DNA of 64,000 bases, taken from positions 2,046,001 to 2,110,000 of the forward strand of contig CP021223.1 in the NCBI GenBank assembly GCA_003999685.1. Direction: 5' to 3'. This document shows, piece by piece, positions 18,149 to 41,611 of the stretch. How positions within the stretch are numbered: the first letter of the stretch is position 1; the number at the start of each line of letters is the position of its first letter. A program made the position numbers and the translations under genes. Under the pieces are notes generated by a model, which had not been told where the DNA came from, did no database searches, and saw only the letters and a program-made list of their open reading frames with translations. Source of the DNA: Taiwanofungus camphoratus (Eukaryota > Basidiomycota > Agaricomycetes > Polyporales > Taiwanofungaceae).

Positions 18149-18164
18149 TAGTGTTGCCGCGGCT
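18149..18164 (+). repeat. hAT left terminal inverted repeat
   Basis: TAGTGTTGCCGCGGCT, matching the right end base for base in inverse orientation. The following 130 bp hold repeated AGTCG/CGACT and CCGGCT words, probably subterminal transposase-binding sites. Confidence 0.9.
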
Positions 18165-18736
18165 TCAGCTTGAAGCCGGCTGATAGCCGCAAGTCGAGCC
18201 ACGACTTTTAGCGACTCGGCTTGATTCGGCTATGTCAATAACCGGCTTTATCCATACCGGCTAAAGTTGTAACTGCAACTTTGCAGTCGACTATAGCCAG
18301 TAGAGCTGAGTCACATGACTTAAACACTTGCAGTCCAGAACCTCTGCCATCGACACCTCGTCTCCTTCGCCGCCATTGCCCTCACCGTTGTCTGGGAAAT
18401 TCTAGTGAGTCCTTTATTTGCTCCATACTCCTATATCTGGCACTCTTATCCACTGCAGAACAAGAGAACGTATTCCGCCCTCCGCTATCCTCCGACAATC
18501 ACTTCTGGTCTCGCTGCCAGAGGAGCTCAACAATGAGTTTCCATTTGCGTTCACAACACCACATGGCTTCACCGGCTCTAATTGCAAGCCGTCCGTGCGA
18601 TCAAGATGTTCCATCACATTGGCCTCCACCTCGACATCTGCGTTTCGCTCATTGTGCAGGGTGCGCAGCTCTACATGACGCTTTCGGACGTCCCCTTCAG
18701 CATTGACCCAGGCATTCCCGTCAACCGTGCGCACGC
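18165..18736. other. hAT left subterminal region and unassigned sequence
   Basis: The first part is rich in short AGTCG/CGACT and CCGGCT words. From about 18350 there are short open frames, including FHHIGLHLDICVSLIVQGAQL on +, that I cannot assign. They may be a decayed leader of the glucan synthase copy. Confidence 0.4.
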
Positions 18737-21700
18737 GCTCAGAGGTACTACGATAACGACTCCGACAACTATGGCCGTTGCGACACGTACATGTCTGACG
18801 GCAGCAACACTGGCTTGAATGATGACGACCGCTATTATGACCACCATGGCGCGTACGACCCGTACGGACGTGAGTGATGATTGAGCGCCATGCACCGGGG
18901 GCTTTAACGTTCTCTGTTCTACCTTTTGGTCCTTCTCTGACCGATACTCCACAGTTCGATTTCACGATGCAGCTTCTGGATAGCAGAGCATCGCGGATGT
19001 CGCCGAACCAGGCACTGCTGACGCTGCACGCAGACTATATCGGTGGGCAGCATGCGAACTACCGGAAATGGTACTTTGCGGCACAGCTGGACCTCGACGA
19101 CGCAGTGGGTCAGACGCAGAATCCGGGTCTGCAGCGACTGAAGACGGTGAAGAAGCGGGGGCCGAAGAACGCATCAGAAAAGTCGTTGAGCGGTGCAATG
19201 GACCGGTGGCGGCAGGCAATGAACAACATGAGCCAGTACGACTGTATGCGGCAAATCGCGCTGTGGCTATTGTGCTGGGGCGAGGCGGCGCAGGTATGCT
19301 TCGTCCCCGAGTGCTTGTGTTTCATCTTCAAGTGCGCGGACGACTATTACTAGTCCCCCGAGTGTCAGAACAGGGTCGATCCGGTACCGGAAGGTCTTTA
19401 TCTTCACTCAGTGGTCAAGCCACTGTACAGGTTCATTAGGGATCAGGGATATGAGGTTGTCGAGGGCAAGTTCGTGCGGCGCAAGAGGGATCATGAGAGC
19501 ATAATTGGCTACGATGATGTGAACTAGCTGTTTTGGTACCTAGAGGGTATTGCAAGGATTGTGCTTAATGATAAGGTCGACATTCTTTCGCCATGTCCTG
19601 GTCATTTTTGCTGATCTGGACACTATATAGACTCGACTGGTCGACTTGCCTCCTGCTCAACGGTTCATGAAGTTCGACAGGGTTGACTGGAACAGGGCGT
19701 TCTTCAAGACCTATTATGAGAAACGGTCTTTTGGACACCTCTTAGTCAATTTCAACCGTATCTGGGTCATCTATATCGCTATGTACTGGTTCTACACTGC
19801 GTACAACTCGCCGACGATCTATAAGGGAGATAGGTCACCTGCCTTGACATGGTCTGCGACCGCGTTGGGTGGCACTGTCGCCACTGTCATCATGATTGCG
19901 GCGACGCTCGCCGAGTTTTCGTACATCCCTACAACATGGAACAACACGTCTCATCTCACTCGTCGGCTTCTCTTCCTAATTGTCACTCTCGCACTTACGG
20001 CTGGTCCAACTGTCTACGTCGGCATCTCAGAGAGTAGCTCTCCAGGCAGCTCGTTGGCGCTCATCCTCGGTATTGTGCAGTTCTTCATTTCGGTTGTCGC
20101 GACGGTCCTCTTTGCCATTCTTCCATCGGGCCGCATGTTCAGCGATCGTGTCGCGGGCAAGTCAAGGAAGTATCTTGCTAGCCAGACGTTTACTGCCAGC
20201 TATCCTTCGCTTAAGCACACTGCACGATTAGCGTCGATCCTCCTGTGGATCCTTGTCTTCGGCTGCAAATTCACAGAGTCTTACTTCTTCTTGACGCTCT
20301 CATTCAAAAACCCGATCCGCGTCATGATTGGCATGAAGATCCAGAATTGCAATGCAAAATATTTTGGCAATGGGCTCTGTCGCAACCAGGCTGCGTTCAC
20401 CTTGACCATTATGTACACAATGGATCTTGTCCTGTTCTTCTTGGACACTTTCCTTTGGTGGATCATTTGGAACACAGTCTTTAGCATTGCACACTCATTT
20501 CTTCTGGGATTATCAATCTGGACGCCTTGGAAAGATATCTATACTCGGCTGCTGAAGAGGATTTATGCAAAGTTGCTTGCGACGTCTGATATGGAAACTA
20601 AGTACAAACCAAAGGTTGGGATCTCTGTGTTATTGGTATTCTTGCTTCTTACCGTTGTCAATACCTAGGTCCTGGTCTCGCAGATGTGGAACGCTATCAT
20701 CATCTCTATGTATCGCGAGCATCTGCTCTCTATCGATCATGTTCAAAGGCTTTTCTACCACCAAATCGATGTTGGTCAGAAAGGTCATCGCAGCCTTCGA
20801 GTACCTCCGTTCTTTATCTCGCAGAGCGATAAAGGCTTCAAGGGCGAATTTTTTACACCCGGTAGCGAAGCAGAGCGCCGTATCTCCTTCTTCGCACAGT
20901 CTCTTACTACTGCTGTTCTGGAGCCTTTGCCTGTCGATGCGATGCCGACCTTTACAGTCCTCACGCCGCATTATAGCGAAAAAGTAATCTCCTTCTCGAT
21001 CTCATAGTACTTTGTGGTTAACATATTTCGTAGATCTTACTTTCGCTCAGAAAGATCATCAGAGAGGAAGACCAGAACACCCGAGTCACTCTTTTGGAAT
21101 ATCTCAAGCAGTTGCATCCAGTGGAATGGGACAATTTGTCAAGGACACCAAGATTCTCGCAGAGGAGTCCCAGATGTACAATGGTCCAAATCCATTTGGT
21201 TCAGACGAGAAAGGCCAATCGAAGACAGACGACCTGCCGTTCTACTACATCGGTTTCAAAAGCACTGCGCCTGAATTCACATTGCGAACACGAATTTGAG
21301 CCTCACTTCGTGCAGACTCTGTATTGTACAGTCTCGGGTATGATGAATTACACGAAGGCCATCAAGCTACCTTACCGCGTCGAGAACCCGGAGGTTGTTC
21401 AGTGTTTCGGTGGCAACACGGACAAGTTGGAGCGAGAGCTAGAGCACATGGCGCGTCGCAAGTTCAAGTTCGTTGTTTCGATGCAACGCTACTCGAAATT
21501 CAGCCGAGAAGAGCAGGAGAACGCAGAATTCCTTCTTCGTGCTTACCCTGATTTACAGATTGCCTACCTCGAGGAGGAACCTGCACGCAAGAAAGGTGGT
21601 GAGGTTCGCTTGTTCTCAGCTCTGATCGATGGCCATTCCGAATTCATTCCCGAGAGTGGGCACCGCCGACCCCAAGTTCCACATTGAGCTACCTGGCAAC

Positions 21701-22083
21701 CCTATCCTCGGCGACGGCAAGTCAGATAACCAGAACCATGCTATTATCTTCTACCGTGGTGAATATCTGCAGCTCATTGACACCAACCGGGACAACTATT
21801 TGAAGAGTGCCTCAAAATTTGCAACGTACTTGATGAGTTCGAGGAATACACAGTTTCGAGCCAGAGTGCATATGCTCAATAGGGCCACAAGGAGTTCAAG
21901 AAAGAGCCAGTTGCTATTGTTGGCACTCGTGAGTACATTTCCGAATCTTCTCGAGCTCATGGTGCTTTGTGATTAAAATGTTCACCCGTTTATTCAAGTT
22001 GCTGACTCCATGGTACAAGAGGCACGGGAGAAGGCTGAGAAGGCTGTCGCGCTCACCGACGTCACTGAAGTGACATCATGATC
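18737..22083 (+). pseudogene. FKS1: 1,3-beta-glucan synthase (FKS-type) pseudogene fragment
   Basis: Cell-wall glucan synthase sequence. It opens with an Asp/Tyr/Gly-rich N-terminal exon (DNDSDNYGR, DDDRYYDHHGAYDPYG), then [39 protein letters not shown], the membrane block (DWNRAFFKTYYEKRSFGHLL, several hydrophobic helices, 19646-20668) and part of the cytosolic catalytic region (LELERMARRKF-like, [53 protein letters not shown]). Stops interrupt it at 19351, 19525, 21297 and about 21882, with a frameshift near 21655. The sequence ends about 21970, before the C-terminal third of the enzyme. A leftover resembling the TLAEFSY block lies near 22090. It is non-functional cargo of the hAT element. 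Confidence 0.9.
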
Positions 22084-22206
22084 GTGATGACGCTCGCCGA
22101 GTTCTCGTACTTCCCCACGACATCCTCAGTTTCCTTTTAACTACGACGTTTCACGCTTTTACATCCTCAATAAGAACCCTCACGAAGATTCTTAAGACCA
22201 AGCAAA

Positions 22207-25200
22207 GTGCAGAATACACTACCTCTCTTGTCTCGTGCAGCTACTCCAATGCTCCATCATCGACACGTTCGCCTTTCGCCCGTGTCTGCTAATGGGACTC
22301 CAGCTCAACATGTTCCTACCATTTGTCTTATCTCCGCCACACCGTCTGTGACGGGCTCAGCTTCCGATGCCAGTACATCTTTTTCTTCAGTTGCGCCTTT
22401 TGCATCATCGCCTCTCGCTCCACGCACTGACTCGCAAGCTCCTCGCAAACGTTTGGTTCCAAAGAAGTCCAAACTAGGACTGCTCGGAGGAGCGGGGAAA
22501 GCGAAGGAGAAGGCAACCAAGGACTTCTCAGATGTCGTATGACGTGTGGGTGGCGGAACTGCATCAACGGGTCGGAGCGGGTTCGAGATCTATGTAGACC
22601 ATGCAGACGACTCTGACCTCGGTGAAATTGTGGTAGTTAAGAAGAAGAAATCGAGGTTGGGCCTAGACGGCATGAAGTGGGGCGCGCTCAGTGAGGTAAC
22701 GAACATCCCGTCTGTACCGAAGGAAAGTAAGCAGCCTACGGAGCATCTATTGAAAGTGAAAGGAGATGAGAGCCAAAAGTGGTGGAGCATCGGGTGTGGA
22801 AGGAAGGATTCGAAAGAAAAGAGCAAAGAGAAGACCTGCGAGAAATCGCAGCCGCAAATCCGCTCACAGAGTAAGTTGACTCATGTATTGGGGGCTATAC
22901 CGCTGACTGATTTGTGCCTAGCTCCTGAGCCCGCGAAGTCACTAGAAACGCGTGCCCGCTTCAATTCGCTGGACTCCGGAATCATGCTCTCAAATCTGAC
23001 ACCTAAAGAAGTACTCCAGGATACTACTTTGTCAGTGCGAACCACGCCGCAACCCCCTTCAGTTATCTTGGATGCCAGTGCTGGAAAACCTTCAGACACC
23101 ACCAACGACCTTCTGGCTCCAGCCGCTGTTCCAGCTAACGGTTCAATTGCAGTGCGGGCTATCAAGTCCATGAGGTCGTTAGCACGGATGGCCAGTTGGG
23201 CACAATTGACGAATACTAACAATGGAGAGAAGGAGGGAGGTGGGTCCGCTAACGCCAACACGAACACCATCAACAGCACTAAGGTGAAAGCGAAGGAGAA
23301 AGAGAAAGATAAAGGGGATGGGGAGAAAAAGAAGAAGAAAGAAAAAGAAAAAGAGAAGGAGAAGGAGAAGACGATCCGTTACTCGGGAGTAGCTTCGAGG
23401 CGGGTGCTCTGAGCACACAAGGGAGCCCTGCACCACTACCTGCCATCTCTAGAGAAGAACCGACCAAGGCCCTTGGCAAGAAGAAGCAGAGCGTCCTAGG
23501 CCTTGGTTTGCCCTCAACTATGAGGTTGATGACTGTCCGCAACACTTCGTTGTCATCACACTCGTCAGCGGATCGCCTCCCGCTTCGAGCCAGCTGTCTG
23601 TTGACTCAGCCCATCTCATCATGAATGCCCAGGGTCGGCCTACATCTGTTGCTTCGAACGGCTCCTCGCTTTGGCCCCCATCTACCGCCTCTGCTGTGTC
23701 CGTATTCTCGGGGCGCTCGGCGTGTTCATCCTCGAGCTCCGTCGTTTCTGTGCGCTGGAATGAGGCAGGGATCTGGTCCTCGAAGGAGATGCAGAGGAAA
23801 GAGAGGAAGAGCCGCGAAAAAGAATCCAAGACTACAAGAGGTGTTAAGGAAAGTCACAGAAGCTCGGAGTCTAGGAAGCGCAAGACCATTATGGAAATCT
23901 TCCCTGAGGCTGAGCTACAGAGACCTCCATCCATGTCGCCTCCGTCGGTGGCTGAGCAACCCATAGTCACTGTCGAGGAGGCAACGATGGATGGTCATTC
24001 AGATCATACTGAAGAGCGTAGTATTGAGACTCCCATGAAGCATGCCCGTCTTCGACCTGTCTCTGAGCAAATGTTGGGTAGAGCGAGGCCTCAAGCAATA
24101 TGTGATGATGGAGACGGTCAGTATCTGAATTTTTGCTGACAGTTTTTGGTGCTCAATCTTTGTTGTTCAGGCGTCCTATCAATCCTGGATGCTGCGACTA
24201 ACGATCTAGCTTCTTTAATCAACCGTTTGGATTTGGAGGCCACACCAGCCAGCAGTACGAAGACATCACTGGTCAAGCCTGTCTGGCTGTAGAACAATGA
24301 TGAGAGTCCCATCAAGAAGCGAATCTTTGGTACAGGTAGTCCTTTGAAGACCGAGTTACGCGAGAGTAGTGCCTCCATCAGCTCTCTTCGACCTTATGGC
24401 CAAACCTTCACAGCAGGCGCCGCAGGAATGCAGCAACCATCGTATCCCAAACCCATGATCGGTCAACAGATTGCTCCGTGGTCTGAGCTCAACTGGGAAG
24501 TATCACCCAGGAAAGCACCCACGAGAACTACGGTGACTACCCGTCTGACTCACAAGCGTACCTTGACGCCGGTTCCTGCAGCTGAACCTCCTCTTGTGTT
24601 CCAGCCGCTATGCCCTGCGAAAGCCAAGTCTCCACCCATAGTGGCTATGGCGCCATCACCATCTCCGAGTACGGTCACGCCGCCTGTCAGCAATCCTGAG
24701 GGGGCCGCTCCTTCATCAGCCACGTTCGGTTCGAGGCCCTCTAAGGTCGGATTGAGATCATCGAACGGCGAAGACGAGTCCGTGCCTTCGCCGACTCCTG
24801 TATTCAAGAGGAGCACTGGTGATGTCGGGAGGGGCTCATCTCTGGTGGCCATCAAGGGCAAGATCAACCAGAGAAGTTTACGGAAGTCCCTTGATAATAG
24901 TGGTATTCCCATCTCTCCTGAGGCAAGGAAGGGCCTGGGACTAACCGGGACTATGAGAGGGTCTCCTTCTACTGAACCTCCTGTAGATCCTGAGGATCCG
25001 GATTCTGATATTCCTGATGAGTTGCAAGTGATCCTATCCGGCCAGTCCGATGAGGAGTGCACGAAATGTTTAGATGACACGCTTTCCTTCCGAGGACTTT
25101 CCGCACCGTCGTCTCCAGTTGAATCACCCGAATTGCCGCTTCCGCAGACTGAACTTCCAGGGGACACCGCCAATGTTCCGCCTGTCCCGCTCTTCCAGCT

Positions 25201-28200
25201 CTATGATGAGGAAGCCAACCAAGCGGACATTGATGAAGGAGGGAACGGATCATCTTCTGAGGATGACACCAAGAAGTCTTTTGACTTCACAGGGGAGTTA
25301 CAGAAACTCAACGAGTCTGGTGCCTCGGACAGGCGCAGCTTCGTGGAGCAGTTGGAAAATGCTTTCCGTACCCCTGCAAGGATTGAACTCGGTTATGGCT
25401 TAGGTGAGCAGTTAGGCCTCAAGGAGAAATTTTTGGCGGTACCTCCAGTGCCGGCTCTTCCGCCTGCTTTTCGTCGCGCCCCACCAGAAGATGTAGCCCC
25501 GCAGAGCGATCCAGACCCGGAAGGCCGATCAGCTCTGTATGACGATTTGATGAGCCCTCCATGCCTGGATTCTGGTGTTTCTGAGGATTTTCGATTCTTC
25601 ATGGACGAAGGGACGGAGGACGAATGTAGAGTTTATCCGGCAAGTACGCGTTCTGGCTCCATGCGCTCTAAGGCATCAGACGGGCAGTTGAACGTCGATT
25701 TCAAGTTCGGCGGCAAGCCATCTGTTCCTGAGACTGTTGAGGAGAGGCAGGCAAAGCCTATGACATTGTCAGATATTATCCCGCCACTGTCTCACATTCG
25801 CTCTCCATCTCAGCCGTCCGATGTCGAGGAGGACAGTTCTGTGCTCAGATCTATCATGGCGAAGGCATCAGAGATTGCACCAGCCGTTCCCCGGCCTCGA
25901 CTTCATTCTGATTCCAGCTCCAAACGACGTGCACGAGAGGTAAGGCAAGTTCCACAAACCTCTGAGTCCCATTTGAGTCATTCTCGAAATGCATCTGAAG
26001 CGAGTTTCACTGGTTTTGAATCTTTCGACGAGGTTAGACGAGGGTTCGAATTTGGTCCCAATCGACCAGCATTCTATCCGTCTCCAGGTGCATTTTCGCG
26101 ACTGACGCATGGGCGGGAAGATTCGGTATTCAGCATCGCATCTGAATCATCGTATGGTGCTGTCGTGCACTCTGGCTCCGCGGATCCATTTGGCTATGGT
26201 CCCAGTCGTCCTCCGTCGATCAACGCGATGTTAATGTCCATGTCAGTAGATGACACATTCTCCTTCATCCACAGAGACTACCATCGTCAACGTGTGGACA
26301 GCGACGCCTCGAGCTTTTACTTCCGAGCTCCTGGATCTACCCAGGTGTCATATCCTTCCAGGCGTGGTCATCGTCGTCATGAGTCCGGCATGTCTATCGC
26401 GTCAAACGGACCGCCGATCAGTTTATACAATCGTAGCTTCGGGGCACACAGACGGAATGACTCTGGTACCAGTGTCAGCTCTGTGGCGCACTCGTATGCT
26501 ATGTATGGTGCTCATGGGGGTCGTGCGGCGTGGGCTCGTCATCGCCACGACGCTTCGATCGATTCGCAGTGGAGTGACTTCTCAGCGCATCGGCTTGGTC
26601 GTCCTGGGCTAGGAGACAAGATGTTCGATAACGATCATGGCATGCCCCTCACTGCAATATCAGCCTCTCCGCCTGAGAGCGTCGCGGGTGAATCGCTCAA
26701 TCACCGCCCGTCTTGGGAGTCATTCTCAGACGAGGCCAGGAAGTCGTTCATGGATGGTTCACTATTCGAAAAGACCACAAACCGGACATCGGTCTCCTCA
26801 GATTCGGTCTTTGGTTGCGATCAATCTTATTCGCAACATGGTCATCAGCTACCGACTCATCAGTTCCGCCCTCTTTCCATGATGAGCGAAGCAAGTGTAC
26901 ATAGTCCACGGAAGGAAGATGACACAATGATCACTGTAAGTTTCTCTATTTACATTTTATGAATCAATCTGATGTGTCTCGATAGATGCTAGACGGTGAT
27001 CGTGTTCGTCGTCGGTCAATTAGCTGGTTGATTGGGACTTCTCCTTGTGTCAGGGTTGAGAAAATGCAGCGCTCAGCGCTGCCCCAGGCTGTTCTTCAAT
27101 TCAGGCAGGAAGATGTCCAGAAGGTTGACTCTCCAAACAAAACGAGACTGATAGAGAAGCCTTCAATCGCCTCTACATCATCTCGTCAATTCGGTGGAGA
27201 ACGGATGATCATGGCACGCAAGGGGCTCTTAGAACGGCAGAGTCTAGAGGATAGTGCTTTCATGGCTCACAGAGAGGATCTACTCGTGTCTTGTGAGTCG
27301 CAATCATTGTATTGGAAACATGCCCCGTTCATGTATACTAATATGACATTGAAGTACGCTCGCGTTCCATCTTCTCTCGACCTGAACCTGGCTCACGGTC
27401 GCGTTCAAGCACTGTCTCCAGTTCAGGAGCTGAGACGCCTCCCTTGTCGAGTTCAGATGGTTCTTCCCAGTCTAGCGGTTCACAATCTAGCATTGATCTT
27501 GGCCATTTAAATGCCCTCCTGACCAACTCCACGTATCCAAGTAGTGGTGTCGCAAGTGCCAGAGCCAGAGCCAGAGCTCGAGGTACTGGGCACCGTCATC
27601 GTATTTCTCAGGCACGTGCATCACGATCATCGGTTTATGAGATTATCCAGGAGGAATCCTCTGTGGCAAGTTCACCATCTCCTATCAAGCCATTAGGGCC
27701 GGAGACAGCTTCTCCTCTCGTCTGTGACTCAGTCTTCATTGTTGATGGCGACACTGAATCCATGCCGAGCGATTGGGACGAGGAGCATGGCATAACAACC
27801 TTGCAAAGGTATTATGCCCTGCGAGATGAGGCACAGGAAACAGTGGTTGAGAGCAAACAGACCTGGGTGGACACCCCGTTCTCAATTTTCGCAGTCCAAT
27901 GTGAGTGTCGAGCGTCTTCGTCTAGTCCTCTGCTGAATTTCATATTGCAGCTTTCCATCCTCCCAGAAACCGAGAGGGAATGCGAGCAATGCTAGAGCAT
28001 TCCCAAAAGAATTACGGACCACTTCCCTCGGACCTCCATCCTCGTCGTGTTCGTTCTCGCACTTCATCAAGAGCGTCGCCGTACCCTATCCGAATCATAA
28101 GGTCGTCACTATCTCCCGAACAGTTGTGACGGTCGGTTGGGGAGCTTCCTCACGACGTTCCTACCAGCGAACATCTCGCAATATCCTCTCAAGCTGTCCT

Positions 28201-28489
28201 TCAAAAGGTTCCTGTCAACGGCAATGTCAAGACAGTCTCCCCACCAGCCGCTCTGGAGGTGATCAAACCTTTTACACCCTTCGCCATTGATTTCGAGCCA
28301 TCCAAGCTGGGCAAGAACCTCGGCCAGCCGCCCCTTCCTACACACCCACGAGCGACATCTAGTGCTCGTTGCACCACTCATGGTCGGTCTAAACGCAGTA
28401 CAGGAAAGTTCAATTCCAATGATCAGAAGGAGAACGTCAGTCAAGGAACGCCCTTTATGTAAGATTTTTCGCACGTAACACAATACCAT
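22207..28489 (+). pseudogene. Broken large Ser-rich protein gene (uncharacterised)
   Basis: A long, mostly in-phase series of exons encoding a low-complexity Ser/Pro/Lys-rich protein of roughly 1900 residues that I do not recognise. Segments include KKSKLGLLGGAGKAKEKA, RAIKSMRSLARMASWAQL, a Lys/Glu tract (23280-23370), GRPTSVASNGSSLWPP and an 870-codon frame (24344-26962) with repeated RRHESGMSIAS-type and HRRNDSGTSVSS-type runs. The 3' exons contain RRRSISWLIGTSPCVRVEK and QRYYALRDEAQETV. Damage: TGA at about 22540, a frameshift near 23390, TAG at 24290 (WL*NNDESPIKKR) and TGA at about 28128. Introns remain. It is probably a captured host gene. It has no catalytic motif and looks disordered. 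Confidence 0.6.
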
Positions 28490-29498: not shown

Positions 29499-29645
29499 AG
29501 TACAATTTCTCCATTATTACGTGAATCACAGTGAGGTTTGGGCATCTTCGCCTCGTGTAAATCTTGCGGAAGGTGTGTGGCTTGCCAGGCATTTTTGCCA
29601 TATATACTGAGATGTTACTTGTAAGTTAGGTGCAATACTACTAAC

Positions 29646-32600
29646 ATGGCTAAGCACCGAAATGGACATGGCAGACACAGCCGCAAAACTCGTATAGCAT
29701 CCTCTAAGGCCTCGTCAGAAGAGGATTTTAACCTTGATGTATCTGGCGGATCCGAGTCATCTCGAAGAGAGATGATGCAGAGCAAGAATCCCCAGCCTCA
29801 TCCCCGTGGTCATCTGGATTCCGCAGCTGCAACTGCAACTGGTTCAGTTGCCGATTCTGAACCTACTCCTCCTAGTTCTAGAAGCACGGCCCATGACATT
29901 AATTTCTTTTTTGAGAAAGTAGCTCCTCGCGACAGAAATGACAAGACCAAGCGAACTGTTTGTAAGCTGTGCAAGTAAGTCAATTCAGAACGTATTGAAG
30001 CTAAAGTTCAACTAATATTGTTATGACGGCTTAAAAAGACAGTCACATGAGTCTACCTTGTCAACATGGCCCGAGAGCCGTAGATACATGTTCTCAACCT
30101 CAACCTCAAACACATCCTTACGCGTTCACTTGGAGAGATATCATGAAGATATCTACTTATCGAAGTGTACCGAGTTCGGCTGGTTGATGCAACTGCCGAA
30201 GAGAAGGGAGCGCGAAAAGGAGGCCAAGGCTCTCTCAGTGAAGGCGGAGCAACTCGCAGCCATCAACCAGAGTGGTGTCAGTCGGGGGTTATTCTCTTTG
30301 TCGGAATTTCACCAGCACCTAATAAGATTCATAGTTGCTGATGACCAAGTACAGAGTCAATTTATTATTTCTGCTTCCCAGTGCTAATAAAAGTTATCTA
30401 GTCACTTAATGTTGTCCAATGCCCAGAATTCCGCAGTCTTCTCCTATACCTGCGTGAAGATCTGCAGGAGAAAGATATACCCCGTCGCACGAAGGTTCGT
30501 GAGTTGATAATCAAAGCTTGGAAGATAGGGTTTGATATGCTTAAGGATGATCTCACGGTACGTTTTCAAAACCATTTGCGTACTTATGGCACGCTCACAG
30601 CTGTGCTTCCCAGCATGCGATCGGCAAAATCAGCTTCACTCTGGACATTTGGTCTGATCAAAGACGTCGCCCATACCTTTGCCTCACAGGTCACTGGATA
30701 GCCAGGGACAAGTTAACAAAATCTCTACTTCTAAAAGCAGGTCTGCTGGCCTTCCATCGTATATTCGGAAAACACGATGGAAAAAACCTTGCCAAGATTG
30801 TTTTAAAGCTGCTTGATCGTGCAGGCGTGACTGTCAGGGTAAGCACCCCACTCCCTTAGTCAGCTCCATTGTTGACCGCTCAAAACACGTTCAGATCGGA
30901 CATTTTACACTCGACAACGCCAGTAACAATGAAACATTCCTTAAGGAGTTTGAGACCTTGCTTCGCCCTCGAGAGATTATCTTCGATAGCCAGGATAATC
31001 GAATTATGTGTTTTGCTCACGTTATCAATATTGCTTGTCAACATGTCATTGATGAAATGACAGATAACAAGCACCCTGACATGAACACTGACGATTCTGA
31101 TTCAGAGCTCTCGACGGACTCTCTTGTCACCCATCAACGTGAACGCGAGCGTCATCCAATTGCACTGGGTTGCGCAATCGTGCAAGCATTACGTTCTTCT
31201 GGAAAGCGTCGTGACGACTTCGATGATCTGATCAGTAACGGTAATGCGAAGGGCTGGTTCCAGGTCGGTGACCCTCCTATCATAGTTCGAGTGCCCCCAC
31301 TCCAACTATTGAGAGACGTCAAGACTCGTTGGGACTCAGTATATTATATGATTAGATGTTTACTTGAATTGCGTCCGGTAAGCTCATCCTGCGACTTGTA
31401 ATTTGCGGCTCTCATTGTCTCTAAATAGGCAATTGATCATTTCGTTGAGAGCCCTAATCAGAAGGACCTGTCACAACTCAAATTGACTGAGTTGCAGTGG
31501 TCTGCATTAACTGATTTCGGAGTTATCTTATGTGTGAGTTTTGCGTTATAGCTTCACTCAAGCACCACTGACAGCCTGAGCAAATTTCAAGATTCCCCAT
31601 CGTGTACAACAGATCATGTCTAGTGAACTCAATCCAATTCTGTCAGGCTCGATTCCGTCATTTGAGACCTTTATGACGAGTTGGGAGCGACTTGCTGAGA
31701 AGAAACCTCATCTCGGAACATTCACCAAAGTCGGATTAAAATGGGCAACAAAATACTATTCTCGCATGGATTGTACACGTGCATACATCATTTCAATGCG
31801 TGAGTTTTCTATTCTATCATTGATTTTATCCTTATTCTTATGCCGGAGGGCATAGTTCTAAACCCCACTGTGCGTTTGTCTTGGATTCACAACCATTGGG
31901 AGGACAGCTACGTTACTGATGCGGTTTTCAAAATCAAATCCATGGTATGACTTACTTTTACTCAAACCCTGGTAAATCCTGACTTATAAAAAATTAGATG
32001 AACGAATACCGTGAACGGGCAGAGCATGCCAGAACAATGCGTGATACAGATGTGGGCAGGGCCAGTGGGACCAATCGGTCCAATCCCACTGGCATCGGTG
32101 GAGATGCGTGGACAACGCTTGCGTCGCAGTATGGGTTTAGTGATCTGGTAATCGGCGATGATGAGAGTCAATCCCACCAGCAGACGGTCGAAGAAGAGTA
32201 CATGGCGTACACGACCGCTGCACCCTCACCAAAAGGGATGAACATTCTCAAATTCTGGGAGGTCAGTGTTTGACCGTTGCTGATCCAGATACACATGCTT
32301 ACCTTGCGCACATTAGGCTAATGAAACCACATTTCCGACGCTCTACTCGATGGCAATGGACTACTTACCAATCCAGGCCTCTTCTGTTCCAAGCGAGCGT
32401 ATCTTCTCATCCAGCGGTGAAACGGACACCAAGAAGAGGAACCGTATTAAACCAGTCCTGATGGAAGCCCTTCAGATGCTCAAGTTCATGATCAAGAAGG
32501 AGCGCCTGAACTTCACCGCTGGTTGGATTACGTCTGAGAAAGCAATGTTGGAGACGGAGAACGTCGAAGACCAGGACCTTCTTGCCCAGCTATTTGAGGG

Positions 32601-32697
32601 CAACAAGGAGGATTCCATCGACAAACTTATTGGTGTTCTTGGTGAGGATGACTCTGATGATGACTTGGACATCGAGCCGTCTCAAGTTCAGTTGTAA
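29646..32697 (+). CDS. hAT-family transposase
   Basis: Catalyses cut-and-paste transposition of its element. About ten exons join cleanly. First comes a Ser-rich N-terminus, then a BED-type zinc finger split by an intron (INFFFEKV, TVCKLC, later TSLRVHLERYH). The catalytic core includes FTLDIWSDQ with the first Asp (about 30640), IGHFTLDNASNN with the second (about 30900), CFAHVINIACQHV and VKTRWDSVYYMI. The C-terminal hAT dimerisation block is MDYLPIQASSVPSERIFSS, then RIKPVLMEALQMLKF (32350-32520), with an acidic tail. No stop or frameshift was found once introns are removed, so it could be functional. The third catalytic residue, a Glu, cannot be assigned with certainty by eye. Confidence 0.87.
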
Positions 32698-32842
32698 TTA
32701 TGATACTTTCAGTACTGAACCTGAATCTCGTCACCTCACTCTGGCTTATGGTATGTAGATTGGTTTATGATGTACTTCTACACACTACCTTATCTACCAT
32801 ATCGATACGTTTTTCTCCCGTCTTCTCGAGAAGCCACCCATC

Positions 32843-33830
32843 ATGGCTGCGGTGATGACACCGACGACTGTGAGAAATGGTTTGGTAAGCGCTGCAGGCT
32901 ACCACGTCGAGATTGCGAGTGGCGGACACCACAACTTCTGTGTTGACAAGCCTCAAGCATTCATAGAGGAGTTTTTCAAGAGTTATCCGCTGGTGACTGA
33001 GCAACTTCTTGCTTCGGAGGGCAAAGCTTACTTCCTCACCATCTCGCAGTGGCCTGGACAGAAACCAGTCCCATTCATTCCGGTTCTTGATGCTGATTTT
33101 GAGGTTTGGTTCAAGAAGGTACGTAACATCACAGTACTGTGTGCGTCGATTATAACATCAGCTTCAGGATTCGCTGTGGGCAGCTGAGGACATCGAGGCT
33201 GTCTTTGACCAGGACAGAGATACATGCAAAGCTGAGGCCCGCATCATCTCTGTGATAAACACTGATGCTGGGAAAACGGTGAAGGTCAAAGGCTTCGTGA
33301 TGCGAGATTCTAAGCCCGTTGTGGAGGTCGTTTCTGCGTTCTTATACTGTGGCCACTATTCTGACTATCACAACATGTTCGAGCTTATTGAGGAGCCTGA
33401 TTACGAAGTCGAACTCGCGACTGAAGCTGCTGTTGGTGTTTTTGCAATCGAAGGAATGGTTCGACTGGGACGATGAGTCGAAACCGCTTCAGGCTGGCAC
33501 AACCCTCATTTTCCGTGTCAAGTCTGAGGTGACGTACCGTAACAAGACTTGCTACAAGTCAGTATCGGTTTCTGGTGACGTTTTCGTACGTGATCAAATT
33601 CAGCAGCCGGTGAAGGTTGGCTCCGTGGATTTCCTCCAGGACGACAGTCGAGGCAACCCTGTTGTTGCATATCTCCAGCGCAACGGCAAACCGCAGGGTT
33701 TGCCAAGCCCCTTGTCAAACGATGGTTACACAATGACCACATCGGGCGCCACAGTCTTTGGCTCCCCGGCTTCCAATGAGCCATACTCCAAGGTTTCGGG
33801 CGATTACAATCCCATCCATGTAGGCACATG
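32843..33830 (+). pseudogene. Fatty-acid synthase fragment A (enoyl reductase to dehydratase)
   Basis: Starts with [21 protein letters not shown] of the fungal FAS enoyl-reductase region. An internal deletion then joins GGHHN to [20 protein letters not shown] and [14 protein letters not shown]. The dehydratase/hot-dog region follows (SVSGDVFVRDQIQQPVKVGS, SNEPYSKVSGDYNPIH). A frameshift is present near 33440 (FAIEG against KEWFDWDDESKPL). At about 33826-33831 the sequence changes abruptly to BRR2. The same gene type resumes at about 37446. In an intact gene this part builds the beta-half of type I fungal FAS in the cytosol; here it is cargo debris. Confidence 0.85.
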
Positions 33831-34078
33831 ACGTTGTTCGCAGTGCCGCAGACACCGTATTGGAGACGCTGAAAAATGAGAACCTGAAGGACTTCGACAA
33901 GAAGAAGGAGGTACAAGAAGTTGTCGGGCCCATCTCAAATGAGTCTTTTGCTCAGCTTCTCAACTTGTCGAAGAAGATCACGGATTACGGTGCGGAGGAT
34001 GAGACAATGGTCGATCCCGACATGGAACGCAAAGACGCCGAGATAGACGACGAGACGGGCGTTGCAGCCGTATTTGAT

Positions 34079-34109
<31 letters not shown>

Positions 34110-37100
34110 GCTATGAGATTCAAGACGAGTCGGACGAAGAAAATGAGGAGGAGGCAGCCGGGGAGGGCCCGCCCGAGTCCTTGGAAGGAGATGACGAACT
34201 TGTCATCGGGAACAGTTCCGCTGCGCGGCAGGGCAGGATGCATATTGACAAAGATATTGTTTCGCCTCACTCTATCGATGGTTTCTGGGTCCAACGACAG
34301 ATTTCTGAAGTCTACTCTGATCCAGTTACTGCTGCCGATAAAGCAGCTTCAGTACTTTCCATCCTAGGCTCAGAATCCAACCTGCGCGATTGTGAGAACC
34401 AGCTCATGGAGCTCTTCGAATACCAAAGCTTCCATGTCATTACGAAGTTTCTCAAAAACCGTGACGTTATTGTGTGGTGCACCAAACTTATGCGCAGTGA
34501 TGCTGATGAGCGTGTCAACGTCGAGGTTGCCATGCGGGAGAAGGGTCTCGGTTGGATCTTGAGGGAGCTCGCTGGAGACAGGAAGGCGAAGGCACGGACC
34601 GATGTCATGGACGTGGACGAGAAGCCGAAAGTAGAGCAAGTACCGAAGACTGCAACTCTTGCGCTGGGTTCGACGGTCCAACCGAAGAAAACCGTGGATC
34701 TGGAAGGTATGGCATTCAGTCAAGGTGGCCATCTCATGTCGAATAAGAAGTGCAAGCTGCCGGAGGGCTCGTTCAAGCGGGCGAAAAAGGGGTATGAAGA
34801 GATTCATGTCCCTGCTCCTAAGCAAAAACCGGTCGCTCCGGGAGACTTCGTTCCGATCACTGATCTTCCAGCCTGGGCAAGAGAAGGCTTCCCAGGCATC
34901 AAGAACCTCAATCGCATTCAGAGCAAGCTCTATCCTGTCGCGTTTGGCACAGATGAACCAATCCTCCTTTGTGCGCCTACTGGAGCTGGCAAGGTATGTT
35001 TATTTAACATTAGATTGTTGCGGTATCACTCAAGCTAAGTACCAGACAAACGTCGCTATGCTTACGATATTGAACGAGTTATCGAAATACCGGGATGAAG
35101 AAAGCGGTGTTTTTGATCTCAACTCATTCAAGATTATCTATGTCGCTCCTATGAAGGCTTTGGTGCAGGAAATGGTTGGCAACTTCAGCTCTCGGCTCAG
35201 CGTTTATGGTGTCAAGGTCGGCGAACTAACCGGCGACGCACAAATGACCAAGCAGCAAATCGCCGAGACACAGATAATCGTCACGACGCCGGAGAAATAC
35301 GATGTCATCACCCGCAAGAGCACGGATACCAGTTACACCAATCTCGTGCGTCTCATCATTATTGACGAGATCCACTTGCTGCATGACGAGCGTGGCCCTG
35401 TCCTCGAGAGCATCATCGCGCGAACGATTAGACGGATGGAACAGACGTCTGAGTATGTTCGCTTGGTTGGCCTTTCTGCGACGTTGCCGAACTACCAGGA
35501 CGTTGCCACATTCCTTCGAGTCGATCCATCAAAAGGTATCTTCTACTTCGACGCGTCCTATCGACCATGTGTCTTGCAGCAACAGTTCATCGGTGTTACA
35601 GAGAAGAAGGCCATCAAACGATACCAGGTGATGAATGAAGTTTGCTACGAGAAAGTGCTTGACCAGGCGGGCAAGAATCAGACGCTCGTCTTCGTACACT
35701 CGCGGAAGGAGACCTCAAAGACGGCTAAGTTCATCCGAGATATGGCCATCGAAAAGGAGACTATTACACAATTCGTCAAGCCTGAAGGAGCTACGAGAGA
35801 GATTCTTCTCGAAGAATCAAACAATGTGAAGGATACAAATCTGAAGGACCTGCTTCAGTTTGGTTTTGGTATCCATCATGCTGGAATGTCGAGGGAGGAT
35901 CGTGGGTTAGTAGAGGAGCTCTTCGCCGATGGGCATCTCCAGGTCCTCGTCTGCACCGCCACACTCGCTTGGGGCGTCAACTTGCCCGCGCACACAGTTA
36001 TAATCAAAGGCACACAGATTTACAACCCAGAGAAAGGTCGGTGGGTTGAGCTATCATCTCAGGATGTGTTGCAGATGCTCGGTCGCGCTGGTCGTCCGCA
36101 GTATGATACCTACGGAGAAGGTATCATCATCACGAATCACTCAGAATTGCAGTACTACCTGAGCTTGATGAATCAGCAGCTGCCTATCGAGTCGCAGTTC
36201 GTGTCAAAACTTGCGGATAATCTCAATGCTGAGATTGTCCTGGGGACAATTCGAAACCGAGATGAAGCCGTCCAGTGGTTAGGATATACATATTTGTAAG
36301 TTCAATGTCTCATCCTGGTCATAAGCTCTCGCTTACTGAGATCGTGCTTTAATCAGATATGTTCGAATGCTCAAAGATTCAGCGCTGTACAGTGTCGGAA
36401 TCGACTACCTAGAAGATGATCCGACGCTGGTTCAGAAGCGTGCGGATATTGCTCACACTGCTGCAGTCTTACTCGAGAAGTGCCATCTAATCAAGTACGA
36501 GCGAGCATCGGGGAGATTCCAAAGCACTGAGCTAGGTCGCATTGCCTCACATTACTATGTCTCGTACACTTCAATGGCGACGTACAATCAGCATCTCAGA
36601 CCAACAATGTCAACTTTGGAGCTTTTCAGAGTGTTCGCTCTGTCAAGCGAGTTCAAGCTACTGCCAGTGCGTGCTCATTTTCATCACCGTGTTATGCACA
36701 GGATTGATGTCACAATTATTACAGGTGCGACAAGATGTAAGTTCCTTTTACGTCGCTTGTAATATGCATCTTGACAATCATATGCACGCAGGAAAAATTA
36801 GAATTGGGCAAGCTGCTGGAGAGAGTTCCAATTCCTGTCAAGGAAAGTGTGGAAGAGCCTGCTGCCAAAATCAATGTTCTGCTTCAAGCCTACATCTTGC
36901 AACTCAAGCTTGAAGGCTGGTACACCGTTTCAATCTGCAGTACACCTACTGATCTAGGCACTATAGGCTTTGCTCTTGTTGCAGATATGGTCTATGTCCA
37001 ACAGTCGGCTGGACGGTGAGTTATTCTCTCCCCGATCATCGCCTATGCCTGACTTCACCGCCTCAAATTAGTATTTTACGAGCCATGTTTGAAATTTGTC

Positions 37101-37445
37101 TCAAACATGGTTGGGCCATGCCGGCAAAGGCTGTTCTTGATCTATGTAAGATGGTCGAGAGACGGATGTGAGTAGGAATAGCTGTCCATGATTGATGCAA
37201 TGCTAATACTCCATCTTAGGTGGGGATCCATGACTCCATTACGGCAGTTCAAGGGAGTTCCATCCGAAATCATCAGGAAAGCCGAAGGCAAACAGTTTGT
37301 AAGTGATCAATTCCTAGTCGATCAATCCCAGTCCTTGACCATTATGTTTGTGTAGCCATGGTATCGCTACTTCGACCTAGTGAGTAGATGTTTAAAAATC
37401 GAATATGATTGTTTCTTACGCACCCTTAGAACCCTCCTGAAATTG
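33831..37445 (+). pseudogene. BRR2: BRR2 (U5 snRNP helicase) fragment inserted in FAS sequence
   Basis: Pre-mRNA splicing helicase sequence that in the intact protein unwinds U4/U6. It begins inside the N-terminal region (DVVRSAADTVLETLKNE), passes an acidic tract, then the first helicase cassette: motif I APTGAGK-T split by an intron at about 34995-35044, [63 protein letters not shown] and [12 protein letters not shown]. The winged-helix and Sec63-like part runs to TPLRQFKGVPSEII and LNPPEIGE, where FAS resumes. Introns remain and I saw no stop in the helicase exons, but the ATG region, the second cassette and the C-terminus are missing. It cannot make a normal BRR2. Confidence 0.9.
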
Positions 37446-40400
37446 GAGAAATCAAAGGTCAGGCAATATGCCAGCAGTACATGGATATGACCTACGATAC
37501 GATGGATAAGGACGGCAATGTCAAGACTCTTCCTCTGTTTGGTGACATTAATGTCAGAACCCAGCGGTACACTTTCAGTCATCCTTCCGGCTTGTTGCTT
37601 GCTACACAATTCGCTCAAATTGCCCTCGTCGTCACTGAGCGCGCTGCCTTCGAGGACATGCGTTCCAAAGGCCTCGTTCAGAGAGATTCGCCTTTTGCCG
37701 GCCACTCCCTTGGTGAATACTCTGCTCTCGCGTCAATCGCCGGAGTCCTTGCTATTTCGTCTCTCGTCGACATCGTCTTCTATCGTGGGATCACCATGTA
37801 GCGGGCTGTCGAACGGGACGCACAGAATCGATCCAATTATGCGATGTGTGCAGTCAATCCAAGTAGGATATCGAAGACTTTCAACGACGCTGCTCTGCGT
37901 GAGGTAGTTGACGATATCGCTCATCGAACCGGCTGCTTGCTTGAGATCGTCAATTTCAATGTCGAGGTATGGGATGTTTTTCAGTTGATTGGTTAAATTC
38001 TGGCTGAATTTGCCATTCTCACTAGGGCCAACAATATGTTTGTGCCGGCGAACTGATTGCTCTTCAGACTTTAACTAACGTGCTGAAATGGAGAAGGTTG
38101 ACATTCAGAAGGTATGCGATGAGGTGCCTCGCTTCCTAATTTGACACTGATCGTTTACCAGTTAACCGAGAAATTCACTGTCGAACAAGTCAAGGAAATG
38201 CTCAGCGAAATTGTCGACTCATCGTTTACCCGGGCAAAAGAACAGCAGGCCTCTGAAGGATACATCAAGTTGGAGCGTGGCTTTGCTACCATTCCCTTGC
38301 CTGGGATTGACGTTCCGTTCCACTCCCGTTATTTATGGGCAGGAGTTATGCCGTTCAGAGCTTGTACGTCCTTGTTTGTCTGCAGAAGTCATCATTTTGA
38401 AATGAATTTTGTTTTCTTAGATCTGTCCAAGAAGATCAATCCTGCACATCTGAACCCGGATACGCTCATAGGGAAGTATGTCCCGAACCTCGTCGCCAAG
38501 CCTTTCGAAGTTAGCAGGGAATATGCACAGATCATCTACGACCAGACTTTGTCCGCACGTCTTGACAAAGTCCTTCGAAAATGGGATCAAGAGAATTGGG
38601 GTTCCCCCGAGCAGCAGCAAAAACTCACTTATATTATTCTCGTTGAACTTTTGGCATATCAATTCGCGTCGCCGGTGAGGTGGATCGAAACGCAGGACAT
38701 ATTATTCACCCGTTATGATTTCGAACGTTTCATTGAAATCGGCCCCTCTCCCACTCTCACGGGCATGGCAACTCGAACGTTGAAGGCCAAGTATGAAGCA
38801 CAGGACGACTCCGTCAGCCATGTTCGAGCCATTTTCTGTCATGCGAAGAACGTCAAAGAGGTATATTACCAGTTCGAGGACGAGCTGGAGGCCTCTACCA
38901 ATGAAGCGTCCACTTCCAATATTGACTCGATATCGCCCAAGGATATAACTTCCTCCCAAGTAGTTGTGCAAGCACCCCCTGCAGTCGCTAATGTGGTGGC
39001 CGCAGTGGCTAGCGTCGACGACGTTCCGGTCAAGGCGACGGATATTCTCACTGTCATTGTAGCTCAGAAGCTCAAAAAGAAGGTAGAAGAGATACCTCTG
39101 TCGAAATCCGTCAAAGACCTTGTTGGTGGCAAGTCGACTCTTCAAAATGAGATTCTCGGCGATCTTCAGCTAGAATTTACATCTGCACCTGAGAAAGGAG
39201 AGGAGCTTCCTTTAGAAGAACTTGGTGCGGCCTTAGGCGTCGGACACTCGGGCGTACTAGGTAAATATTCGTCTGGTCTTGTCTCGCGTCTCATCGGTGG
39301 CAAAATGCCTGGTGGCTTCAATATGTCTGCGATCAAATCGTATCTTTCGAAGACTTGGGGTTTGGGACCTTCACGTGGTGATGGTGTCCTCATACTTGGA
39401 ACCACGATGGAACCGTCTAAGCGGTTAGCGTCGGAAGTTGATGCCAAAATGTGGTTGGACTCGGTCGTCGCAGTGTACGCTCAAAGGGCTGGTATTTCAT
39501 TGGCTACTGGCAGTTCTAGTAGTGGAGGCGGAGGTGGTGGTGGTGGTCCCACCATTAACAGTGAAGAGTTCCTCAAGTTCCAGGCAGAACAGGAGCAGTT
39601 TGCGGCGCAGCAGATTGAACTTTACATGCGGTACCTCAAATGCGATTCTCGAGCTGGAGAGCATAAATATGAGGCGGAAAAGGTTAACGTTGGAGCTCTT
39701 CAATCTCGGTTGGATGCCATTTCGAGAGAACACGGAGATACTTATATAGATGGAATCCAGCCAGTATTCGACGCGCTCAAGGCCAGACATTTCGATTCGT
39801 CCTGGAATTGGGTTCGTCAAGATGCCCTGTTGATGTTCTACGATATCATTTTTGGCCGTTTAACGACTGTGGATCGTGAGATCACAGCCCGCTGCATTGC
39901 TATCATGAACCGTGCGGATCCTGAACTCGTCACTTACATGCAATATTACATCGATCAATGTGATCCCACTCGCGGAGAGACTTACAAGCTCGCGAAGCAG
40001 TTTGGCCAACAGCTGATTGACAACTGTCGTGAAGTAATTGGCCAGCCACCTCTTTATAAAGACGGTATGCTTTGATTTTCTGAACGTAATTTGTTTCATG
40101 CTAATCATGACTGAACGGTCACGTTTCCGACTGCCCCGCACACGGAAGTCACGGCAAAGGGTGATATCGTCTACTCCGAAGTAGTAAGAGAAAACGTCAG
40201 GAAGTTGGAAGCATATGTTGAGGAAATGGCTAGCGGTGACACAATCTCGTCTCCGACCAATATTTAGAAGATCCAGGACGACGTTTTGAAGCTGTGGAAC
40301 GTGGTGAAATCTCAGCCCGAAATCAGCGAAGAGCAGAAGAATCGCATCAAGGCTCTTTACGAAGGCGTCGTGCGCACCCTTCGTAAGCGGCCTGAATCGC

Positions 40401-41377
40401 GTCCCCGTCCTGGAGCGCCTCGTACCCGCCGTTCTTCCTCGCAATTCCTCCGCCCTCAAGTGTCTGGCATCACTTCTGTTACCGCGGATAAGGTTCCTCT
40501 TCTCCATCTCAAGCGTAAGGTTGGCACCACTTGGGAGTATAGCAGTAATCTCACTGGTGTCTACCTCGATATACTCCATGAAATTGCAACTTCCGGAACG
40601 ACGTTCAAGGATAAGAACGCGCTTCTGACTGGTGTGGGCAAAGGGTCAATCGGGGTCGAGGTTCTCAAAGGCCTGCTATCCGGCGGTGCTCAGGTTGTCA
40701 TCACAACATCTCGTTATAGTCGTTCGACGGTGGAATACTACCAGGGCATTTTCCAACGGTTCGGTAGCAAAGGCTCCGCATTGACTGTTGTCCCTTTCAA
40801 CCAGGGCTCGAAGCAAGATGTGGAGGCTCTTGTTGATTATATTTATTCCACACTTGGCCTTGATCTAGACTATGTTCTACCTTTTGCGGCCGTCCCCGAG
40901 AATGGTCGCGAGATCGACGGTTTGGATGATAAATCAGAACTTGCACACCGCATCATGTTAGTCAACCTCCTTCGTTTGCTTGGAGCAGTCAAAGTCAAGA
41001 AGGCGGGTCGTCACATTCTTACTCGGCCTACTCAAGTCATCTTGCCTCTGTCACCGAACCACAGGCTCTTTGGTAATAATGGCCTGTACTTCGAATCGAA
41101 GATTGCGCTGGAAACCTTGTTCAACTGTTGGAACTCTGAGAGTTGGGGCGAGTATCTTTGTCTTGCTGGTGCTGTTATAGGGTGTGTGCACAATTTTTTC
41201 TTGTTCTCGTGGTTTTACTCAAATTTGTCCAGCTGGATGCATGGCACCGGTGTGATGGAGGCAACTTCAGAGACAAGGTGGGAAGGTCGGTGCCTGCTCC
41301 TGGGTGCGGTGCCCTTACAATTGGCAGAGAGCTTCATTCCATGGAATGTTAGTCTTATAGATTGTTATAGCTTATAA
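37446..41377 (+). pseudogene. Fatty-acid synthase fragment B (MPT, ACP, ketoreductase; fused beta-alpha type)
   Basis: Continues FAS with MDMTYDTMDKDGNVKTLPLF and the malonyl/palmitoyl transferase nucleophile motif GHSLGEYSALAS (37690-37730), then QQYVCAGELIALQ, FHSRYLWAGV and IEIGPSPTLTGMA. A Pro/Ala/Val linker leads without a break into the acyl-carrier segment (KATDILTVIVAQKLKKKVEE, DLVGGKSTLQNEILGDLQ) and the alpha-half: SKTWGLGPSRGDGVL, then the ketoreductase (LLTGVGKGSIGVEVLKGLL, ITTSRYSRSTVEYYQ). The continuous frame 38141-40075 shows that the source gene had beta and alpha halves in one chain. Defects: TAG at about 40265 (TNI*KIQDDV), damage near 38090, and an end at about 41377 without the ketosynthase. 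Confidence 0.88.
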
Positions 41378-41419
41378 GTAGTGTATAATATCAATATAAT
41401 TTGTCATATTACATATGAT

Positions 41420-41587
41420 ATAGTCGACTTACAGTCGGCTTCTAGTCGACTAAGTCGCGCACCAACCTAAGTCGACTGCAAGTCGCGGCTCATAGCTGAG
41501 CTGATCATGAGCCGCGACTTGCCGAGTTGCAGCCGAGCCGTGACGTGGGAAAGTCGCAGCTCGCTGTAGTCGGTTTGCGACTAGCCG
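41420..41587. repeat. hAT right subterminal repeats and hairpin
   Basis: About eleven AGTCG/CGACT words occur in under 180 bp. They include a 16-bp inverted pair, GCAAGTCGCGGCTCAT at 41478-41493 and its complement at 41507-41522. The left end has the same words at lower density. hAT transposases bind such subterminal repeats. Confidence 0.65.
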
Positions 41588-41603
41588 AGCCGCGGCAACA
41601 CTA
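41588..41603 (-). repeat. hAT right terminal inverted repeat
   Basis: AGCCGCGGCAACACTA, the exact inverse of 18149-18164. Confidence 0.9.
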
Positions 41604-41611
41604 TCCCTACG
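41604..41611. repeat. hAT target-site duplication, right
   Basis: TCCCTACG, identical to 18141-18148; the LTR resumes here. Confidence 0.92.

Follow-up and report, generated by a model that had tools for sequence, protein, structure and literature searches.

Which transposons of the hAT superfamily are known to carry host genes, and on what scale? In Dothideomycetes, hAT elements with a captured histone H3 gene have been described, ~5.6 kb long in Pyrenophora tritici-repentis (PMC3538342) and 9.5-9.9 kb in Pseudocercospora fijiensis (PMC6710886). In the passages of these two papers cited here they hold one captured gene, without introns and described as transcript-derived, and for the P. fijiensis element there is an 8-bp duplication and repeat-induced point mutation at CA (PMC6710886). 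The plant Pack-TYPE elements, which include Pack-hAT, are defined as non-autonomous in the part of PMC8903248 drawn on. For animal Pack-TIRs the corresponding part of PMC8277862 gives hAT as the commonest superfamily (208 of 370), with single-copy cases prevailing, gap-filling and FoSTeST models, and a described hAT example that captured 291 bp. Among other fungal elements, ToxhAT/ToxTA of wheat pathogens is 14 kb with a TA duplication and 74-bp termini and, as it is now placed with Tc1/mariner in the section cited of PMC12506042, would not be a cargo hAT, while MarorhAT-10 of Marasmius oreades is an active hAT of 3,396 bp with CpG methylation of its copies (PMC9674265, in part). The present locus is in the basidiomycete Taiwanofungus camphoratus. 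Within the 64,000 nucleotides analysed (the window, positions 2046001-2110000 of contig C4), a single hAT transposon spans 18149-41603, a length of 23,455 bp, and 18,064 of these bases (77.0%) can be aligned with four loci of the host in other parts of the genome. It is very probable that a transposase-encoding hAT grew to 23.5 kb from at least four host loci, and that the whole then spread by cut and paste, as a single unit, over several chromosomes.

One element at several loci

The genome searched, with the host taken as monokaryon W1, comprises 33,194,378 bp in 15 contigs, to which the C-numbers refer. A 301-bp query from the left end of the element finds nine places in it and a 300-bp query from the right end 16, four of the latter being self-inverse 45-bp matches inside the same copies. 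Both ends are present at 99-100% at five loci, on C4, C2, C3, C11 and C5 (Table 1). Four of these are full copies with a core identity of 99.1-99.8% by aligned piece, and the fifth is a deletion derivative. Perfect 8-bp duplications, all of different sequence, flank seven of the seven family members that could be cut out at both ends, i.e., the five of the giant lineage and the short elements of C6 and C13; outside all counts are the one-ended places L040, L041, L042 and L044 and C1:4136197-4136450 (81% to the left backbone).

Within the window just the two element ends match the terminus, no third copy being found there with up to 3 mismatches. The octamer that is duplicated at the insertion, TCCCTACG, is present in the window seven times, against a shuffle mean of 1.63, and stands singly at the insertion point of each of two uninterrupted sisters of the long terminal repeat (LTR) that the element splits, at 45164 and 55635. 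When the hAT flanks are joined at one octamer they align end-to-end with both sister LTRs at 97.1-97.3% over ~1.61 kb, with one gap each. A first-pass annotation made from the letters alone had claimed a basidiomycete host, perfect 16-bp inverted termini with a perfect 8-bp duplication, an empty site in the LTRs at 44051 and 54522, and a single hAT element with host-gene fragments inside; each of these is upheld, the last by the recurrence of the same mosaic at four loci, each with an 8-bp duplication of its own, once other copies were sought by their ends.

Could the interval nevertheless be two hAT ends that bracket unrelated host duplications, its copies being segmental duplications? Such duplication does occur in this genome. 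The blocks C9:1162700-1200900 and C9:1238500-1283900 (L042/L044 and L043/L045), ~76-84 kb apart, are 98.6-99.8% identical over the stretches read and hold hAT ends and one short hAT twice, with the same duplication GCTGGAGT, so that the two short copies reflect one insertion. C6, C13 and C9 hold short hATs whose ends are similar and whose contents differ, and comparison of 1.5 kb of flank on either side of the seven elements gives 10 cross-matches, including C3 with C11 (73-81%, inverted) and some with C6. However, the giant-lineage flanks have no 5'-5' or 3'-3' match in the same orientation, i.e., none is collinear, and the copies are therefore separate insertions; the cross-matches look like insertion into related retrotransposons, the C4 and C6 elements being in the same LTR family and those of C3 and C11 in related sequence in opposite orientation. 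That the full copies and the C5 derivative have five different 8-bp duplications between them, and that no internal terminus copy is present in the window, also counts against this explanation, which is extremely unlikely. The four full copies are likewise not what small cargo-free elements with unrelated ends would give. At least four of the seven insertions are in sequence, probably of retrotransposons, that also flanks another element. As an observation on the family, its members are often nested in retrotransposons, with LTR-like repeats in the C4, C6, C3 and C11 flanks.

That the ends and the cargo were misjoined during assembly is a thought that a repeat-rich genome invites, since the copies are long and ~99% identical and the analysis rests on the assembled sequence, but it too is barely credible. 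The same internal joins are present at four loci in copies with 30-91 private substitutions each, the C3 and C11 copies hold different nested LTR elements, and strain V5, assembled separately, encodes a protein that passes from the Ser-rich cargo to the backbone. This protein, AcV5_000019 (P0042), has the element backbone as its last 29 residues and is closest to the C2 copy; since it runs from cargo into backbone, the element is present in strain V5, under annotation as a gene.

The short relatives have contents of their own. That of C6 matches C1:3959659-3962355 in pieces (80-90%), partly duplicated within C6, and interior parts like this C1 stretch are also in the C13 and C9 short elements. 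By their sequence they look like Pack-hAT-type elements without the transposase of the giant element, and this terminus family may be one that captures genes habitually.

Table 1. Features of the element, its surroundings, its copies and its short relatives (locations are in the window unless a contig is named)
Feature	Location	Strand	Length	Remarks
Target-site duplication, left, TCCCTACG	18141-18148	+	8 bp	perfect
Left terminal inverted repeat, TAGTGTTGCCGCGGCT	18149-18164	+	16 bp	perfect; kept across family
Left backbone	18149-18735	+		first 155-170 bp common to short family members
1,3-beta-glucan synthase (FKS1) fragment	18736-21938	+		parent C13:973339-969617(-)
Filler between captures	21939-22124	+		two origins
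Ser-rich gene, most of coding region	22125-28534	+		parent C9:924113-917707(-), 96%
Transposase-bearing backbone	28535-32797	+		in this genome found only in the four full copies, a 94-bp match on C7 aside
hAT transposase gene	29646-32697	+	834 aa	10-exon model
Transposase exons 1-5	29646-29974, 30084-30348, 30402-30557, 30614-30838, 30895-31377	+
Transposase exons 6-10	31429-31533, 31592-31799, 31856-31944, 31998-32261, 32317-32697	+
Fatty-acid-synthase fragments (three pieces)	32798-33821	+		C6:213404-213543, 214612-214891, 215928-216539
BRR2 (spliceosomal helicase) fragment	33822-37450	+		C10:1612176-1615804(+), 97.2%; BRR2_plug, Helicase_PWI
Further fatty-acid-synthase fragment	37443-41265	+		C6:217056-220893(+), 95.5%
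Right backbone	41266-41603	+		dense subterminal AGTCG/CGACT motifs
Right terminal inverted repeat	41588-41603	-	16 bp	perfect
Target-site duplication, right, TCCCTACG	41604-41611	+	8 bp	perfect
Solo LTR split by the hAT element	17028-42097	+		TG...CA, GCGG on both sides
Sister LTR, uninterrupted	44051-45658	+		paralogous empty site
Sister LTR, uninterrupted	54522-56129	+		paralogous empty site
Full copy	C4 (window)		23,455 bp	duplication TCCCTACG
Full copy	C2		23,460 bp	aligns end to end with C4; duplication CTGTGGTC
Full copy with nested LTR element	C3		31,205 bp	503-bp LTRs, 99.8%; duplication TACCAGGG
Full copy with different nested LTR element	C11		29,560 bp	573-bp LTRs, 99.8%; duplication GATCACTC
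Deletion derivative	C5		11,342 bp	duplication GTCAGAGA; lacks positions 2632-14733 of the window copy, so lacks transposase
Short relative	C6, L038 2380-6787		4.4 kb	own perfect 8-bp duplication
Short relative	C13, L039 2332-6067		3.7 kb	own perfect 8-bp duplication
Short relatives	C9, L043 5285-8791 and L045 4475-8775			one 8-bp duplication in common

Cargo and parent genes

Apart from a backbone of ~5.2 kb, which is the two ends and the transposase gene, the element is a mosaic of pieces for which likely parents were found, all on the transposase strand. The first reading of the sequence had named the same four sources, glucan synthase, a Ser-rich gene, fatty-acid synthase and BRR2, on that strand; it was right that the cargo is large and, presumably, intron-bearing, and its figure of about 17 kb was slightly too low, the size being 18.06 kb. 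The FKS1 fragment consists of two pieces (18736-18892 and 18889-21938), joined at a 4-bp microhomology where the parent has a further ~0.51 kb, and an FKS1 paralogue on C3 is just 67-68% identical. In the filler that follows, 21989-22063 matches C14:297079-297153 (92%) and 22071-22123 is a second, diverged glucan-synthase stretch (85%). The gene that gave rise to the Ser-rich piece is conserved in agaricomycetes (198 matches, 120 of them listed), and no Pfam domain was found in it. Between the first three fatty-acid-synthase pieces ~1.07 and ~1.04 kb of the parent are missing, and the fragment at 37443-41265 covers the acyl-carrier-protein, helical and short-chain-dehydrogenase regions. The BRR2 piece sits inside the fatty-acid-synthase piece, where it takes the place of ~0.52 kb, and its alignment with the parent is free of gaps over 3,629 bp, across several parental reading frames. 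Because the alignments continue across the presumed introns that separate the parental reading frames, it was DNA and not mRNA that was copied. The captured fatty-acid-synthase stretch has further partial matches at C4:17938-18397 and C9:1520586-1520740 (79% and 84%), perhaps a fatty-acid-synthase paralogue or another fragment.

The cargo has diverged unevenly from the W1 genes. The 5' part of the FKS piece is ~1.3% diverged and its changes look neutral (8 at 503 synonymous and 23 at 1645 nonsynonymous sites; synonymous divergence 1.1-2.0%), and its 3' part has 25.3% synonymous and 3.1% nonsynonymous divergence. The fatty-acid-synthase 5' piece has 26.8% and 7.1% respectively; synonymous divergence is 3.5% in the next piece, 11.7-13.9% in the 3' pieces and 6.7-10.1% in BRR2, with nonsynonymous values of 0.6-1.9% in fatty-acid-synthase 3', BRR2 and FKS 5'. 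The outer Ser-rich blocks are at 6.8-15.9% synonymous and 2.0-2.7% nonsynonymous. Quite a contrast is the Ser-rich middle block (24525-26775), where there are four changes from the parent in 2.25 kb and none at 540 synonymous sites, the blocks on both sides being roughly 2-17% diverged. Low nonsynonymous relative to synonymous divergence in fatty-acid-synthase 3', BRR2 and FKS 3' indicates that most of the divergence there accumulated under purifying selection and predates capture, and hence that the donors were alleles other than those of W1; the contrast is weaker for the Ser-rich blocks and the fatty-acid-synthase 5' piece.

The C2 copy adds a further haplotype. Of its 91 private sites, 56 are in two 500-bp bins, a 0.9-kb tract equivalent to window 23540-24480 that differs from the parent gene and from the other three copies. 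Conversion of this tract back to the W1 parent allele was considered and rejected, as many differences from the parent remain there; given these differences the tract represents a third haplotype, and on sequence comparison it points to ectopic exchange with another allele. The blocky divergence as a whole may reflect donor haplotypes that were themselves divergent, a foreign donor, or exchange with host genes at a later time. Of these, a foreign donor would mean that the element took shape in a relative of another species, or in a divergent strain, and reached this genome by crossing or transfer, with which the high and patchy synonymous divergence from the W1 parents, largely pre-capture, and the third-haplotype tract of the C2 copy are in keeping. 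However, a diverse species with recombining haplotypes, or later cargo-host exchange, gives the same pattern, and an origin in another lineage is possible though the less probable course. Native alleles of other strains were sought through glucan-synthase homologues, and none named Taiwanofungus is among the matches listed (120 of 1875, several of them nameless).

Is the cargo of use, to the element or to the fungus, as chimeric genes, decoys or regulatory RNA kept by selection? The annotation of the Ser-rich cargo as a V5 protein, the common strand of all cargo and transposase, the almost unchanged Ser-rich middle block and the absence of a stop from BRR2 could be read in that way. Set against them are the truncated domains (the FKS1, fatty-acid-synthase and BRR2 pieces are truncated, the Ser-rich one having most of its coding region), frame breaks, stops relative to the parents in four of the 15 cargo coding stretches, and the neutral-like changes of the FKS 5' part. 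Selection for the cargo is accordingly highly improbable, and most likely it is a passenger without function.

Transposase, decay of copies and surroundings

The transposase model is open in C4, C2 (10 amino acid changes) and C11 (7), if spliced as modelled, in agreement with the first-pass annotation of an apparently intact hAT transposase; in C3 it is broken by the nested LTR element. The Dimer_Tnp_hAT domain (PF05699) is at residues 695-765 with 60.6 bits against a cut-off of 21.4. D261, D332, E735, C364 and H367 are invariant in an alignment of 12 proteins; we take the first three to be the DDE residues, and C364/H367 the CxxH motif, of hAT transposases. The CxxC...H pattern of a BED zinc finger is visible, without a Pfam BED match. 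In the homologue search 41 of 8000 scored candidates fell within the E 0.001 threshold, the best named being from Amanita muscaria (49% over 94%). Elsewhere the genome holds five further hAT dimerisation domains, and no other copy of the transposase backbone was found in it beyond one 94-bp match on C7.

Subterminally, AGTCG/CGACT motifs number five in the first 250 bp and 13 in the last 250 bp, and GTCGAC is at ~90-fold over the element interior. The motif positions are partly the same in C6 and C13, but from the short elements of C9 the motifs are nearly absent (0 and 1). In the Ac element the transposase binds subterminal repeats and, by analogy, the AGTCG/CGACT repeats may be candidate transposase-binding sites. 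With an 8-bp duplication, a dimerisation domain and 16-bp termini that are within the 5-27 bp given for hAT terminal inverted repeats (PMC12506042, in part), the element has the features of a hAT.

The ten pairs among the five copies differ by 0.44-0.99%, and by 0.11-0.36% when CpG sites and the C2 tract are left aside. Scored against the majority of copies, C-to-T changes are at CpG in 43 of 52 cases in C4, 35 of 56 in C2, 34 of 48 in C3, 32 of 38 in C11 and 60 of 72 in C5, where the CpG share of cytosines is 23%. A recent spread followed by CpG methylation of the copies would leave such a record.

As to the surroundings, the element bounded by the sister LTRs has a 1,284-aa open reading frame with RNase H and integrase zinc-binding domains, compatible with the label 'Gypsy' given to it earlier. 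The solo LTR that the hAT splits sits between open reading frames of another retroelement, RNase H and reverse transcriptase, at 15452-17077(-) and 42095-43069(-). This suggests a three-fold nesting, with an older retroelement holding the solo LTR and the LTR in turn the hAT. Elsewhere in the window a 65-nt stretch occurs three times ~2 kb apart (5870-5934, 8008-8072 and 9977-10041), diverged (71-72% to the first), possibly in tandem paralogous genes.

Formation, and comparison with known systems

How could an element of this size have been put together? Breaks in it would have undergone faulty repair in which the repair switched template to host genes, and the switching would have left the gapped pieces, the short overlaps, the filler and the position of BRR2 inside the fatty-acid-synthase piece. 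The enlarged element would then have transposed whole, by cut-and-paste, to several chromosomes, with its transposase presumably recognising the termini and the AGTCG-rich subterminal repeats, and the copies would have become CpG-methylated after the spread. The joins measured are internal cargo joins and the C5 deletion, as distinct from joins with the backbone. By best-breakpoint scoring, two of four internal joins have overlaps of 4 and 2-3 bp and the other two have none, and the overlap at the C5 deletion is 5 bp; the chance mean is 0.66, and the chance probability of 4 or more is 0.016. Seven unaligned bases are present where the first and second fatty-acid-synthase pieces join. BLAST overlaps of 6 and 8 bp were rejected as microhomology, best-breakpoint scoring giving 2-3 and 0 bp there; the overlap between BRR2 and fatty-acid synthase is alignment slop, with the best breakpoint at ~37451.

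Several points weigh against growth by capture followed by movement as one unit, or limit it. Overlap exceeds the chance mean at just three of the five measured joins and is absent from the other two, so that the template-switch model depends chiefly on the order of pieces in the mosaic. The figure of four loci counts sources, not capture events. A cargo-free full-length ancestor was not found in this genome, the first intron and the start codon of the transposase model are choices, and the uneven divergence between cargo and parents is not explained by a simple single capture from W1 alleles. The CpG decay argues for silencing of the copies and so counts against mobility; open transposases and low non-CpG divergence are compatible with mobility at present, which is possible, as the first-pass annotation had it, and unproven. 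A wider generalisation, that basidiomycetes harbour self-mobilising 'giant hATs' which grow by break-repair copying of large housekeeping genes and whose cargo exchanges with host alleles, is tentative and on balance doubtful. The first-pass annotation had proposed an under-described class in basidiomycetes, a putative class for which the search covers one basidiomycete genome. The C2 haplotype tract and the near-identical 2.25-kb Ser-rich block are the basis for the exchange that the generalisation proposes and, were it true, giant hATs would act as a mobile store of essential-gene alleles that are old or foreign.

Growth from several host loci and transposition as one unit would mean that a cut-and-paste hAT can be coupled to 18 kb of host DNA and nevertheless give rise to several full copies, at a size far beyond that of the fungal gene-capturing hATs cited above. 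With the parents, near-identical copies and sequenced sister monokaryons available, capture of genes by template switching is open to direct test. There is also a warning for annotation, as AcV5_000019, a fusion of cargo and backbone, is listed publicly as an ordinary gene.

No giant cargo hAT in a basidiomycete was found in the open-licence literature searched, and PMC8865532, on the chromosomes of T. camphoratus W1, has no word beginning with 'hat'. As with the basidiomycete MarorhAT-10 and its short non-autonomous relatives, short relatives accompany the element; the main text of PMC9674265 on MarorhAT-10 is without the words cargo or captured. ToxhAT/ToxTA is similar as a class II cargo element in fungi. 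The Starships, giant fungal cargo elements, have a tyrosine-recombinase captain (PMC12506042, section cited), whereas here there are a hAT transposase, inverted termini and 8-bp duplications, and Pfam scans of all 23 open reading frames of at least 150 aa in the element, and of the transposase, gave no DUF3435 captain, smaller exons lying outside the scans. Animal Pack-TIRs share microhomology, template switching and multicopy cases with distinct duplications, and differ in scale from the present element, whose full copies, four in number, hold 18 kb taken from four loci (PMC8277862, in part). Plant Pack-hATs, as presented in the part of PMC8903248 drawn on, likewise have host-gene fragments between hAT termini that are multiplied with the element; unlike them the full copies here encode their own transposase, open in C4, C2 and C11, though the C5 copy falls under the Pack-hAT definition, and the short C6 and C13 elements probably do. 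With the H3 hATs of Dothideomycetes, to the extent of the passages cited above, the element shares a hAT transposase domain and captured housekeeping genes between inverted termini, amplified together, and the Pyrenophora element has a shorter recombinant form (PMC3538342). The differences are its 23.5 kb, four source loci, retained presumed introns and CpG-type decay, and what is new relative to the systems compared here is size, number of sources, genomic capture and possession of its own transposase.

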